This document shows, piece after piece, positions 35,815 through 43,699 of a stretch of 64,000 nucleotides of DNA. A program made the translations under genes and the position numbers. Origin of the DNA: an uncultured Ignavibacteriota bacterium (lineage in GTDB: Bacteria > Bacteroidota > Ignavibacteria > UBA10030 > UBA8401); the NCBI GenBank assembly GCA_903861125.1, contig CAIOTF010000023.1:124001-188000 (forward strand). Direction: 5' to 3'. Each line of letters starts with the position of its first letter. Positions within the stretch are counted from its first letter, which is position 1. The notes under the pieces are model-generated. The model worked only from the letters and a program-made list of their open reading frames with translations. It was not told where the DNA came from and searched no databases.

Positions 35815-37944
35815 TTATTTTTTTGATCTATTCCGTATTCTCTCGGCTTGATCGGGATAGAGTTTGTCAACACAGTTTGGACAAATACCATGGGAAAATT
35901 GTGCGTTGGTATGCTGAGTCACATACGACTCTACCTGTTCCCAATACCCTTTATCATCCCTGACCTTTTTACAGTGCGCACAGATCGGGATAATGCCGGT
36001 CAATGTTTTCACTTCGGCCAGCACGCTTTGCAGTTCGGCAATTAAACGTTCGCGCTCTTCTTCACCTTGCTTGCGTTGAGAAATATCGGTGTGGGTGCCG
36101 AACATCATTAGCGGTTTCCCATCGGCAGATCGTGTAATAACACGGCCGCGGTCCAGGATCCAAACCCAGGTACCGTCTTTATGTTTCATCCGGCATTCGC
36201 ACGTGTAATAGAGACGTTCTCCCTTAAAGTGCTGCTCCAGAAGTATTGCAGATTTCTTCAGGTCGTCGGGATGAGTATGGACCTCCCACGTTTTAATGCT
36301 TACCGGGGACAACTCTTCGGGCATATACCCGATAATCTCAAACCATTTTTGGTTAAAGACAACCTCTCCGGTCTGGATGTTCCATTCCCATGTGCCAACA
36401 TTGGTTCCTTCAATAATGCCTTGCAACCGCATGCGTTCATTATTCAGAATCTCTTCCGATTTCTTACGTATGGTGATATCGCGGTAGTTCAGCAGTACTC
36501 CATTAATCAATGGGTCATTCACAAGATTTGCAGCGGTAAGTTCTATCTGTTTGTAATTCCCATCTTTGCATTTATATCTGTATTCCACTTTTGCCGATGC
36601 GTTATCTGTTTGTAGAAGTGTATAGAATTCTTTTTGAATCCGCTCGAGATCATCAGGGTGAACCGTTAACCAGCCATCGGTGCCGATTAAATCGTGGGGT
36701 TGCCACCCAAACCATTTTTCAATATTGGGACTCTTATATTTCATTAAACCATCAATGCCGATGACACCGATGACATCCGAGATATTGGCAATCATCTTCT
36801 TATGTCTCCCCTCACTTTCCAGTATCTCCTCTTCGGCACGTATACGGTCGGTAATGTCGTGGATGATGGAGAACAGAATGTATTTTCCCTGATGATCAAT
36901 TGGAGAAGAATGCACTTCTACGATCCGGACAGTTCCATCGGATAATTTGTGGTGAAAAATAAAATAATTATTCCGATGTTCAACAGCACTTTCCCGTTCC
37001 GCACGAACTTGATCTTCCGGCAGAATGTTAATTGCGCTGATATTCATGGAGCAGAGTGCCGATCTTTCGTATCCGTAAAATTTTGCTGCCGCAATATTTG
37101 CGTCGAATATATTGCCGGTTCTCGGGTCAACAAGCATCATCACCGCGCTGTGCTCGCGGAACATACTTCTAAAATTCTCTTCGCTTTTCCGCAGTCCCTC
37201 TTCGGCATATTTCCGCTCGGTCAGGTCCGAAACGGTAACAAAACATTTGGCGCCGTTCTCCATAACAGCGCCGGCAAGCTGAACGGTCAGCCGCTCTTTG
37301 CCGTTCCGCACCAGGATCACTTCGCAAAATTTACTGACGTTGTTGTAGAATACTTTTTCAAGAAACGTGTTGAACACCGGCTTAGTATCCTCGGAGACAA
37401 AAAAACCGAACCGTGCTTTCAGCAGCAGAGAACGCTCTTTGCCGAGCAGCGCTGCCCCGAAAACATTCAGCTGAAGTATTTCCCCTTCTTTGGAAAGGGT
37501 AAAATAACCCGCTGGGGCAAAGTCGTATAATTTCACATACTTATTTTCGGCAAATTCCGCTTCTCTCAGATGCGCGCGGTTCAGCTCTTCGTGTGTTATG
37601 AGTAATTCGGCAGCGCGTGCCTCTTTCTCAAAATTCTGGAACAGAAGTTCTTTGTTGGCGATCACCAGTTCGGCGGCGCGCGCTTCTTTCTCAGAATTCT
37701 GAAATAAAAGTTTTTTGTTCGCTATGACGAGATCGGCGGATATTACTTTTTCCTTCTCGGCATTCTCCGACAGCTGCGCATTCATCATCTCCAGCTCGAT
37801 CTGGTGCACTTCCAGTTCATGAACAAGTTTCAGTGCATCAATTTCGGATGATGGCGTACCGGTTTCCCGTTTCTTGCTTTTCAGCAGTTCTTCCGCTTGT
37901 ATGCGAAGAAGTTCGGCGTTCGTTTTGTCGTTGGTGTTGTTCAT
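35815..37944 (-). CDS. Multi-PAS protein with CxxC...CxxC tail, no kinase
   Basis: This 709-residue soluble protein has an N-terminal coiled coil with a duplicated unit (VIANK-LLFQN-EKEARAAEL, about 70-120), a PAS-like domain (about 135-250, YDFAPAGYFTLSKEG) and three more PAS domains (about 255-630). The tail has CAHCKKVRDDKGYW and FSHGICPNC. The tail is about 80% identical to that of the 14930 protein, so the two are paralogues in their output end. No catalytic or DNA-binding domain is present. AAAGGA precedes the ATG. Thirteen copies of a 5-bp repeat lie about 100 nt upstream. Confidence 0.85.
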   Translation of the reverse strand: MNNTNDKTNAELLRIQAEELLKSKKRETGTPSSEIDALKLVHELEVHQIELEMMNAQLSENAEKEKVISADLVIANKKLLFQNSEKEARAAELVIANKELLFQNFEKEARAAELLITHEELNRAHLREAEFAENKYVKLYDFAPAGYFTLSKEGEILQLNVFGAALLGKERSLLLKARFGFFVSEDTKPVFNTFLEKVFYNNVSKFCEVILVRNGKERLTVQLAGAVMENGAKCFVTVSDLTERKYAEEGLRKSEENFRSMFREHSAVMMLVDPRTGNIFDANIAAAKFYGYERSALCSMNISAINILPEDQVRAERESAVEHRNNYFIFHHKLSDGTVRIVEVHSSPIDHQGKYILFSIIHDITDRIRAEEEILESEGRHKKMIANISDVIGVIGIDGLMKYKSPNIEKWFGWQPHDLIGTDGWLTVHPDDLERIQKEFYTLLQTDNASAKVEYRYKCKDGNYKQIELTAANLVNDPLINGVLLNYRDITIRKKSEEILNNERMRLQGIIEGTNVGTWEWNIQTGEVVFNQKWFEIIGYMPEELSPVSIKTWEVHTHPDDLKKSAILLEQHFKGERLYYTCECRMKHKDGTWVWILDRGRVITRSADGKPLMMFGTHTDISQRKQGEEERERLIAELQSVLAEVKTLTGIIPICAHCKKVRDDKGYWEQVESYVTQHTNAQFSHGICPNCVDKLYPDQAERIRNRSKK

Positions 37945-38045
37945 TTCTTTTTTCCTTTAACCAAATATATTTTACATGCAGATAACAGATCTACAAATCC
38001 GGTTGTCCGCTCGGCCAGAAGAGATTATGGAATTAAAACGGTTAC

Positions 38046-38110
38046 TAGTGTAGTGTAGTGTAGTGTAGTGTAGTGTAGTGTAGTGTAGTGTAGTGTAGTG
38101 TAGTGTAGTG
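38046..38110. repeat. Pentanucleotide microsatellite, 13 perfect copies of TAGTG
   Basis: This is an uninterrupted run of TAGTG (CACTA on the minus strand), 65 bp, with a partial copy at the right end. It lies 102-166 nt upstream of the minus-strand start codon at 37944, so it is non-coding and placed to change promoter spacing if its copy number varies. Confidence 0.97.
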
Positions 38111-38134
38111 TACACACCGCAGCATTTTACGAGA

Positions 38135-38161
38135 GGGATGCTTACATGAAACGGGACGTTC
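38135..38161 (-). promoter_or_regulatory. Conserved upstream element, copy 1
   Basis: On the minus strand this 27-nt element begins GAACGT and ends AGCATCCC, with CGTTTCA in the middle. A 26-nt copy lies at 41477-41502 upstream of the CheB-CheR-PAS gene, with about 22 identical positions and one gap. It sits 25 bp upstream of the TAGTG repeat. A shared regulator or sigma-factor site is likely; its identity is unknown. Confidence 0.5.
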
Positions 38162-38162
38162 T

Positions 38163-38285
38163 TTAACGGGAGAAACATTTTTGTCTACAGCTGAAGAGCT
38201 TATTGTTATTGGGCAAAAATTGCCATCTGTTATGCCCTGCTACCTGCGAATCGCGCAGCATCCGTTCGTTTTCGTGTATGGCCGC
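38163..38285 (-). pseudogene. Decayed PAS-like continuation of the CheB-CheR-PAS gene
   Basis: In frame after the TAA at 38286-38288, 40 codons stay open to the next stop at 38163. They start AAIHENERMLRDSQ, which is the usual helix joining one PAS domain to the next (compare xAIxENExxLRxSQ), then become degenerate (VAGHNRWQF) and end. This suggests that the ancestral protein continued into another PAS and probably a kinase, and that a nonsense change plus a deletion removed them. Confidence 0.55.
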
Positions 38286-41200
38286 TTACCCTTTTTTCCC
38301 GGAGTGTTCAGCCGTAACGCGCGCGGTAATATCGCGTATCTGGCACTGGATCACCTTCAGATCGTTCACCGAATATACATTGCTGACGAATTCTACATAG
38401 ATCTTCCGTCCGTCCGATGCTTCCAGCGGCAGATCTTCGTAGCGGACAAATTCCTTTTGCTGTAATTCTACAAATTTATCCTTGTTGGCGATGATATCCT
38501 TCAGGAATCCGATCTCCCAGATTGTTTTTTCGATGAACTGTTCACGCGAATATTTCAGCATCTCTATCATGAACGGGTTCACATCGGTGATTTTTCCGGT
38601 GGCCGCATCGAGAATAAGGATGCCGTCTTTCGACATTTCAAAAAGCCGGCGGTACCGGGTTTCCGAAACGGTCATTGCCTGATTTGCTTTTTGCAATGCG
38701 AGATCAATATTTTTTGATTCCGTGATATTCGTAAATGTCATCACCAGTCCGTCAATGCGGTCATCAAGCGTGCGGTACGGCATGATCCGTACGTTGTACC
38801 ACCGCTGGTCATTGGTTTTTATCGCTGTTTCTATTGTTGAGAGCGTTCTCAACACCTGGCGTGCATGGCTGTCAATATCGGGATACTGCAGATCGCTGAC
38901 CAGGTCGGTAAACGGACGGCCGATATCGGCGCTGCGCAGTTTGATAATATTGGTGGTGGCATCGGTATAGCGGCGGATATTCAGATCTTTATCCAGAAAC
39001 AGCGTGGCGATCTCGGTGCTGTTCAGCAGATTCTTCATATCGTTGTTCGCCTGCACAAAATCGCTCACCTTGCTCTGCAGTTCAATGTTAATGGTCTGCA
39101 TCTCTTCGTTCAGACTCTGCATCTCTTCTTTGGAGGTGGTCAGTTCTTCATTGGTCGACTGCAGTTCCTCGTTGGTTGACTGAAGCTCTTCGTTGGTCGA
39201 TTTCAGTTCTTCCTGCGATGTCTGCATTTCTTCGCGGGTGCTTTGCAGGTCCTCATAACTCCGCTGCAGTTCGATCTCCAGTTCTTTCTGGCGCGACAAG
39301 GAAGCCGACTGCTTTCCGCTCTTCACTTTCACTATGTTCTGTTCCAGTACCGCAGGCATATCGGTGAAGACGATCATCACCATCCCTTTTATCGAATCCG
39401 GTTTTTCGATACGCTGAATGGTAAGATCTAAAAATTGCGTTCCTCCGTTGGTCCCCACTTTAATATTACGGACAATAACAGCGTTAAAGTTTTGCATAGC
39501 TTTGCGGAACGCTCCCGGCAAAGCCTCACGCAATCCGTCGCGCGCCATGGCATGGATATTCCAGTTCGCTTTTCCCGCGACCGGTGCAAGATATTTTCCC
39601 GTGTTGCCCGTAATGTAAATAATATCTCCGCTGCTGTTCACCAGCACACTGGCGGGCGCAAAACGCTGCAGCAGAATCTGATCTGCCAGGATCTGTATGT
39701 TCTCAACAATGTTATGCGACACTGCATCAAGAATCTTTTCTTTTTTCACGCGGTGGAAGGAACTCGGAAAATCGATTAGTTCGGTCCGCAGCGGTATTTG
39801 AGTCCGTTTGAAAAATTTTAGTTTACCGTCGAGCTCTTCAAAACCTTCCGAATAACCTCCGAGCGATTCGGCGGTGCCGAGCACCATAATTCCGCCCGGA
39901 TTAAGGCTGTAATTGAAGAGTGCAATCAATTTTTTCTGCAGTTCCGGTTCCAGATAAATCAGCATGTTGCGGCAGGTAAGAATATCCAGTTTGGTAAACG
40001 GCGGATCTTTGATCACATTCTGGGAAGCGAACACCACCATTTCGCGTATGGGATTATTAACGCGGTAATGTTCGCCATCCGCGGTAAAAAAACGGCTCAG
40101 GCGTTCGGGCGATACGTCGGTAGAAATGTTCTTAGAAAAGATCCCTTTGCGTGCCAGCTCTATGGAATCAGCATCAAGATCGGTGGCGAAGATCTGCAGC
40201 GTAAGATTTTTACGGCTTTTATTTTTTTCCAGCGCCTCTTTAAAAATAATCGCCAGAGTGTACGCTTCTTCTCCGGTGGAACAGCCCGGCACCCATGCAC
40301 GCAGTACGTATCCGTTGGGCAGTTCTTCCATCAGTTCGGGAAGAATATGTTCTTTAAGATTTTCCCATACCGCCGCATCGCGGAAAAAGTTTGTTACGCC
40401 GATCAGCAGTTCCTTAAACAGTATCTCGACCTCTTTCGGATTTTCCTGCAAGAACCGGACATAGCTCTGAATCTTTTCTATTTGGTGAATACCCTTGCGC
40501 CGTTCAATCCGGCGGAACAGGGTGTTCTTTTTGTAGAGGGAAAAGTCGTGGCCCGAATGCTCGCGAAGAAGAATGATAATTTTTTCCAGATTGCTTTTAT
40601 CTTTCCCTTCGATCACCGGATCCGTTTTTACGGAGGGAATATATTTCAGGAATGCAATCAGTCTTACGGGTAGTTGCTCTGCCGGCGCTACAATATCGGC
40701 GATCACCGATTCGATCGCACTTCGGGGCATTCCGTCAAATTTTGCTGTTCCGGGATCCTGCACCAGTACAATGCCGTTCTTTTCTTTAATGGCTTTCAGT
40801 CCCAAACTGCCGTCGCTCCCCATGCCGGAGAGAATAATGCCGATACTGTTCTCCTGCCTGTCGGCGGCCAGTGACCGGAAAAAAATATCGATCGGCAGAC
40901 GAAGTCCGCGCGATTCCACCGGATCGAACAAATGCAGAGCACCGTTAAGCAGCGAAAGACTTTTATTGGGTGGTATAACGTACACGCAGTTTTGGTACAC
41001 CGTAAGCTGGTCGGTTGCCTGATACACCTTCATTGGTGTAATGCGCTGCAGCAGTTCCGGCATAATGCCGACATGGTTCGGATCCAAGTGCTGAATGACC
41101 ACAAATGCCATTCCGTTGTCTTTCGGCATATTGCCGAAGAACAGTTCCAATGCTTCCAGTCCGCCGGCTGAAGCGCCGATTGCCACAATAGGAAAATTAT

Positions 41201-41312
41201 CCGCGACGGTACGCTTTGCGATGATATCCGATTTATTTTTTTCCGCCGGTTTTCTAACGGGTGTGCTCGGCTCCGCTTTTTTGCTTTCCGGTTTCGGTGT
41301 TTTGTTTTTCAT
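38286..41312 (-). CDS. CheB-CheR-PAS fusion protein, probably C-terminally truncated
   Basis: This 1008-residue protein has a CheB methylesterase-like domain (about 40-220) with Ser48 in AIGASAGGLEAL, His in QHLDPNH and Asp in GMGSDGSLGL. A CheR methyltransferase domain (about 235-500) follows, with SAM-site VPGCSTGEEAYTLA. A coiled coil built of STNEELQ heptads (about 650-730) and PAS domains up to the end complete it. CheB/CheR fusions of this type usually end in a kinase; here the protein stops just after a PAS, and coding-like sequence continues past the stop. The ATG at 41312 is used because AAGGAA precedes it; the frame is open to 41381. No other chemotaxis genes are nearby, so a non-chemotaxis signalling role is likely. 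Confidence 0.88.
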   Translation of the reverse strand: MKNKTPKPESKKAEPSTPVRKPAEKNKSDIIAKRTVADNFPIVAIGASAGGLEALELFFGNMPKDNGMAFVVIQHLDPNHVGIMPELLQRITPMKVYQATDQLTVYQNCVYVIPPNKSLSLLNGALHLFDPVESRGLRLPIDIFFRSLAADRQENSIGIILSGMGSDGSLGLKAIKEKNGIVLVQDPGTAKFDGMPRSAIESVIADIVAPAEQLPVRLIAFLKYIPSVKTDPVIEGKDKSNLEKIIILLREHSGHDFSLYKKNTLFRRIERRKGIHQIEKIQSYVRFLQENPKEVEILFKELLIGVTNFFRDAAVWENLKEHILPELMEELPNGYVLRAWVPGCSTGEEAYTLAIIFKEALEKNKSRKNLTLQIFATDLDADSIELARKGIFSKNISTDVSPERLSRFFTADGEHYRVNNPIREMVVFASQNVIKDPPFTKLDILTCRNMLIYLEPELQKKLIALFNYSLNPGGIMVLGTAESLGGYSEGFEELDGKLKFFKRTQIPLRTELIDFPSSFHRVKKEKILDAVSHNIVENIQILADQILLQRFAPASVLVNSSGDIIYITGNTGKYLAPVAGKANWNIHAMARDGLREALPGAFRKAMQNFNAVIVRNIKVGTNGGTQFLDLTIQRIEKPDSIKGMVMIVFTDMPAVLEQNIVKVKSGKQSASLSRQKELEIELQRSYEDLQSTREEMQTSQEELKSTNEELQSTNEELQSTNEELTTSKEEMQSLNEEMQTINIELQSKVSDFVQANNDMKNLLNSTEIATLFLDKDLNIRRYTDATTNIIKLRSADIGRPFTDLVSDLQYPDIDSHARQVLRTLSTIETAIKTNDQRWYNVRIMPYRTLDDRIDGLVMTFTNITESKNIDLALQKANQAMTVSETRYRRLFEMSKDGILILDAATGKITDVNPFMIEMLKYSREQFIEKTIWEIGFLKDIIANKDKFVELQQKEFVRYEDLPLEASDGRKIYVEFVSNVYSVNDLKVIQCQIRDITARVTAEHSGKKG

Positions 41313-41476
41313 GGGAACATTCCTTTTTCCCTGCTTTTTTTTGCAGCGGCCGGGCAGATGTGCAGACATCCGGATGGTCAATTACCGTGAGCGATCGTAA
41401 AAAAATACGTAACGGATGAGACGAGTGTGTATGGACAGGATGAAAAAATAGATGAGAATACGCCGCCGTTTTTGGT

Positions 41477-43028: not shown

Positions 43029-43160
43029 ATGGACGCACTTGAACTGTTATTCCTTTTCCTCTCTGCCGTTGTTCTCTATACGTACGTCGGATACGGAATC
43101 ATTTTGTGGACGATGGTAAAGATAAAGCAGTATAAAAAAGCTACCGCGGATTTGCACTGA
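43029..43160 (+). pseudogene. 5' fragment of a GT2 glycosyltransferase gene cut by a tandem-repeat array
   Basis: This frame of 43 codons starts at an ATG with a good GGAG site 6-7 nt upstream and lies 11 nt after the epimerase. It encodes one membrane helix, with MDALELLFLF at the start and LYTYVGYGIIL inside, matching the N-terminal membrane anchor (typically LLYTYVGYP) of membrane GT2 enzymes. Reading then enters the repeat array and ends at the first TGA (43158-43160). The catalytic part of such a protein starts right after the array at 43722. Confidence 0.75.
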
Positions 43161-43699
43161 AAGAACGGATCGTCACAGATAAAAAAACAACCACGGATTT
43201 GCACTGAAGAAAAAAGCAACCGCGGATTTGCACTGAATGAACGGATCGTCACGGATAAAAAAACAATCACGGATTTGCACTAAAAAAAGCAACCGCGGAT
43301 TTACACTGAAAGAACGGATTGTCACAGATAAAAAAAACAACCACGGTTTTGCACTGAAGAAAAAAGCAACCACGGATTTACACTGAAAGAACGGATTGTC
43401 ACAGATAAAAAAACAACCGCGGATTTACACTGAAAGAACGGATTGTCACAGATAAAAAAAACAACCACGGATTTGCATTGAAGAAAAAAGCAACCACGGA
43501 TTTATACGGAAAGAACGGATCGTCACAGATAAAAAAAGCAACCACGGATTTACACTGAAAGAACGGATCGTCACGGACAAAAAAAACCGCGGATTTACAC
43601 TGAAGAAAAAAGCAACCACGCATTTACACTGAAAGAACGGATCGTCACGGATAAAAAAAACCACGCATTTACACAGAAAGAACTGATTTGCACGGAAAA
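43144..43699. repeat. Composite tandem-repeat array, 14 units of two alternating lengths
   Basis: Every unit opens with a variant of CCRCGGATTTRCACTGAA. Long units (45-48 bp) continue AGAACGGATYGTCAC and an A-rich end; short units (26-29 bp) continue GAAAAAAGCAA. The order is L S L S L S L L S L L S L L, the last being degenerate (39 bp). Units are direct, adjacent and without spacers, so this is not CRISPR. The array contains stop codons in the gene direction and separates the two parts of a GT2 gene. Confidence 0.93.

Follow-up and report, generated by a model that had tools for sequence, protein, structure and literature searches.

Does the perfect TAGTG microsatellite in front of a multi-PAS gene of an uncultured Ignavibacteria bacterium control that gene, or is it mostly a passive product of replication slippage? 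The tract sits in a 341 bp gap between two minus-strand genes (Table 1) of the window, by which we mean the whole stretch of 64,000 nucleotides that was analysed. Both the sequence itself and Tandem Repeats Finder give 13.4 copies with 100% matches and no indels; 13 full copies reach position 38110 and two more bases extend the run to 38112. This bears out a preliminary description, which had placed the run at 38046–38110, with a conserved stretch on one side and the PAS start codon (37944, minus strand) on the other. Among the properties looked for in a contingency locus are a long uninterrupted tract of a short unit and a position in the coding, promoter or leader region. The run has the first, and it lies between genes, 101 nt ahead of the PAS start codon; it is possibly a locus of this kind. 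The genome that contains the window (G000) comprises 4.19 Mb in 54 contigs. Among its named relatives in our collection the nearest is an uncultured Ignavibacteriae MAG (contig CAJBTU010000047.1), which we take to be the same genome as the congener G007.

Table 1. Features in and around the gap that holds the pentanucleotide tract (window coordinates).
Feature	Coordinates	Strand	Remarks
Multi-PAS protein, 709 aa	35815..37944	−	Several PAS domains; orthologue in G007
Spacer, tract to start codon	37945..38045	−	AAAGGA ribosome-binding-like site 8 nt before start
Hypothetical upstream reading frame, 68 aa, reading through the tract	37972..38178	−	Doubtful
Pentanucleotide microsatellite	38046..38112	−	TAGTG on the plus strand, ACACT when read in the direction of the PAS gene
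Conserved noncoding block, about 125 bp, adjoining the tract	38113..38237	−	Three copies in 391 genomes
CheB-CheR-PAS fusion protein, 1031 aa, upstream gene	38286..41381	−	G007 homologue on another contig, C240

Pfam identified no kinase or cyclase domain in the PAS protein. Its gene contains a 63 bp tandem repeat (window 37606–37739) that encodes repeated 21-residue N-terminal segments and is present in equal number in the G007 orthologue. The upstream gene has a second copy in the same genome (C17:200507–203158, 77% identical). Its G007 homologue (C240:12495–15576) carries one TGA and one TAA within the match and may be broken or misassembled. A search of the genus returned 101 PAS-protein matches in G000 and 88 in G007, compared with 23–39 in six congeners, among them 26 in the complete genome G004; the expansion of PAS sensors in G000 and G007 is lineage-specific.

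The tract stands apart from its genomic background. Under dinucleotide-preserving shuffling two adjacent TAGTG units are expected 0.05 times per window; 12 matches to such a pair are observed, a number reached in none of 100 shuffles. A search for further TAGTG runs, as the preliminary description had proposed, located at least four units at no second place in G000 and in none of the 21 other genomes of the family. We also took a census of perfect tracts in 864,000 bases, about one fifth of the genome, made up of the window plus 40 stretches of 20 kb that were chosen by hand from twelve contigs and are not a random sample. The TAGTG run was the sole tract of period 4–6 with at least 15 bp and at least three copies, and beside it just two perfect tracts reached 20 bp and 2.5 copies, a 12-mer in 2.9 copies and a 7-mer in 3.4. 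An earlier census of 485,503 bases, which also took in three smaller stretches, one overlapping another, had the same outcome.

On the side away from the PAS gene, the tract adjoins the conserved noncoding block. In a DNA search with a stricter limit the block was found in two of the 391 genomes of the class, once in G000 and twice in G007. A family-level DNA search with the region flanking the tract gave matches in four of 22 genomes, our own included, and beyond the G000 copy and the two G007 copies these were only two weak matches (E values of 0.005 and 0.009). Identity between the block and its two G007 copies is 80% (94/117) and 83% (98/118), which makes the block more conserved than the fourfold degenerate sites of the orthologous PAS genes, of which 69% (162/236) are identical (Fisher p values of 0.023 and 0.0048, from two tests that share data since the G007 copies are duplicates with 93% identity). 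The comparison suggests that the block is under constraint, by a modest margin. A 27 bp element at 38135–38161 had previously been singled out as conserved. It does lie within the stretch retained at 80–83% in the congener; as a repeat within the window it has no counterpart, there being no second copy at 65% identity or better. At gathering thresholds no Rfam family was detected in the window. The possibility that the block came from a phage or mobile element was considered and rejected: its core has no match in viral contigs and the intergenic region has no plasmid match. Homology between the two G007 copies extends over about 450 bp, which makes duplication of a larger stretch likelier than such an origin.

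The two copies in G007 are informative about the history of the tract. On contig C47 the block stands in front of the PAS orthologue, whose product has 81% residue identity to ours across 709 aligned positions and is 261 residues longer. The copy on contig C332 is found downstream of a PAS paralogue, and there the contig breaks off 24 bases past the matched stretch. All three block copies end in nearly identical letters and pass directly into five-base units. On C332 these units form a perfect (ATACT)6.2 that runs to the contig end, as contigs often do at hard-to-assemble repeats; on C47 there are about four imperfect units, a short and broken tract in the equivalent position. At least five units of AYACT occur in two of the 391 genomes, at one place each and both beside the block; with the limit lowered to at least four units, those two places are still the only ones among the 22 genomes of the family. 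Chance placement of the tracts beside the block was set aside, the block itself being so rare. On this comparison the position of the tract is evidently inherited, predating the split from G007. As a separate observation, contig C47 ends in a tandem repeat of a 16 bp unit (L047 1–135), and pieces related to this repeat are scattered across many G007 contigs.

Tract unit and length differ between the two species, each represented by one genome. Every unit in the window carries C where the units on C332 carry T (ACACT versus ATACT), and a difference so uniform implies that at least one lineage rebuilt its tract from a single unit or a few. We infer that this wholesale replacement of units is a signature of slippage since the split. 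The preliminary description had gone further, proposing that slippage could tune expression of the PAS gene by shifting the upstream element half a helical turn with each unit gained or lost. The arithmetic of the half turn is correct, and past slippage is favoured by a homologous tract with a different homogeneous unit in G007. The tuning itself is unsupported, for reasons that are best considered together with the possible routes by which the tract might act.

One such route is promoter spacing. Copy number would alter the distance or helix face between a regulator site in the block and the core promoter, to give several levels of PAS expression. The geometry is appropriate, with block, tract and gene in that order, and there are precedents in nadA, with a repeat demonstrated between distal operators and the promoter (PMC2791445), and in sabA of Helicobacter pylori, a demonstrated rheostat (PMC4081817). 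However, the tract before the orthologous gene is short and broken, and the GCGGTG with which the shared part of the block ends is 170 nt from the start codon here but 362 nt from it in that orthologue, because unrelated sequence lies between. The spacer from tract to gene cannot be aligned with the congener; a two-sequence comparison returned short matches only (best E value 0.055). No promoter was located, a scan that covers the sigma-70 type alone having found none against 0.8 expected in shuffles, and the conserved block occupies one side of the tract only, where nadA-type regulator sites would flank it. An exact-spacing mechanism is not kept by the orthologue and could operate in the window species alone; we consider it unlikely. 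Part of the changed spacing is accounted for by a GCAGAGTTCGCTGAGGACGCTGAGAAGG segment in the longer G007 gap (L047 ~700–740), which resembles dispersed intergenic repeats.

The tract might alternatively be transcribed and tune translation of the PAS gene by altering the length of the 5′ leader or a small upstream frame, a possibility that we rate somewhat lower than spacing. The UspA2 repeat is a known case in a 5′ untranslated region, as cited in PMC4679880. On the gene strand our tract contains no G and no stop in any frame. The frame from ATG 38178 stops 27 nt before the PAS start; with one unit less or more, its stop would fall 100 or 80 nt ahead of that start. The frame is also open at both G007 block copies; on C47, however, it stops about 225 nt before the PAS start. 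Other observations count against this route. Mismatches fall at third positions in 3/5, 3/7 and 2/6 cases, no third-position bias, with the difference classes assigned to codon positions by hand. ATG 38178 is not preceded by a clear ribosome-binding site, and the leader folds no better than shuffled sequences (z = 1.06). When 32 residues of the frame were searched against the 391 genomes, only the three block copies had E values below 0.02. Matches at E values up to 1 extended to 113 genomes; apart from the three block copies the best of them has 0.021, and we therefore take the rest to be noise. Translation of the upstream frame is accordingly doubtful on sequence grounds. Taken together, a regulatory role through either spacing or the leader has, in our estimate, about one chance in three. 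More remote is the idea of a recombination or rearrangement site, or of a protein-binding array, by which intergenic repeats help to reshuffle arrays of PAS genes. In its favour, the two species have different genes upstream of the block, G007 carries the block twice, and both genomes exceed the six congeners in PAS homologues; a rearrangement role has been proposed for the heptamer arrays of Bacteroidetes (PMC4679880). Nevertheless, the unit is not conserved as a binding array would require, and homology breaks on the far side of the block, not within the tract. We regard this explanation as improbable.

The likeliest single reading, to which we give slightly better than even chances, is that of a microsatellite driven by slippage at an inherited position beside the conserved block and the PAS gene, and mostly passive. 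Starting from a short pentameric seed bordering the block, replication slippage would form the tract and renew it; the tract would have occupied that position since before the window species and G007 separated. Copy number would probably differ between cells, and the tract would serve mostly as a passive spacer within the promoter or leader, affecting expression mildly if at all. For the passive role we note the broken tract before the orthologous gene, the unkept spacing and the region past the tract that defies alignment. That both species still have a pentanucleotide tract, although about 31% of fourfold degenerate sites have changed, could mean selection, in a comparison that has few independent events behind it, with the block in two species only and the G007 copies mutual duplicates. 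In addition, the tract is singular in a tract-poor genome, which a general bias towards slippage leaves unexplained. An inherited and selected contingency locus, at which slippage would set the dose of PAS protein per cell through promoter spacing or a frame-counting leader, is a tentative alternative and one that we believe to be rather unlikely.

Most known examples of phase variation through slipped repeats concern host-adapted pathogens and surface antigens. In Neisseria, the opa genes carry tracts of the unit CTCTT. These share with our tract a five-base unit, and their slippage changes the reading frame, but they lie inside the coding sequence that they control (PMC7157529), whereas the present tract is outside the PAS gene. 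Also comparable are the TAAA tract of nadA in Neisseria meningitidis, whose short units precede a gene and have sequence elements on the side away from it, and the AGAT tract of uspA2 in Moraxella catarrhalis, a short-unit tract upstream of a start codon. They differ from ours, which is known from sequence alone: the nadA unit is a tetranucleotide with a proven effect of copy number, operators and a regulator, in front of an adhesin gene of a host-adapted pathogen, and the uspA2 tract is transcribed and varies from 6 to 23 copies among strains (quoted in PMC4679880). The T-tract of sabA in H. pylori is likewise an intergenic repeat upstream of a gene; it differs in being a mononucleotide tract beside the core promoter and in belonging to a genome with many tracts of that sort. 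The TAACTGA heptamers of Beggiatoaceae and some Bacteroidetes are intergenic direct repeats in non-pathogens, with contigs that end inside the repeats, and differ in often forming many sets per genome, close to start codons (PMC4679880). Assignment to that type was rejected, our tract having a TAGTG unit at one locus in the genome and lying 101 nt from the start codon.

A term search of a review of phase variation (PMC11868660) returned `two-component' once, in a reference on Bordetella pertussis, and did not return the word `sensor'. That reference indicates that frameshift phase variation of a two-component gene is already known. Our literature searches found no paper that joins simple sequence repeats, Ignavibacteri and phase variation and no match on environmental Bacteroidetes, and queries with the names of repeat units returned plant papers only. 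An inherited tract upstream of a signalling gene in Ignavibacteria would extend phase variation to the sensory genes of environmental bacteria, the host in this case being an apparently free-living bacterium. If the tract were a selected contingency locus, the population would hold cells of differing sensory gain. With a single clear locus, copy number should be readable directly from metagenomic reads.

A second repetitive region of the window is of a different character. Positions 43134–43688 hold 555 bp of nested tandem repeats, with units of 29, 47, 76, 124 and 150 bp built on AACCACGGATTTACACTGAAAGAACGGAT. The complex occupies the interval from an epimerase gene to a neighbour that, judged by eye, is glycosyltransferase-like.
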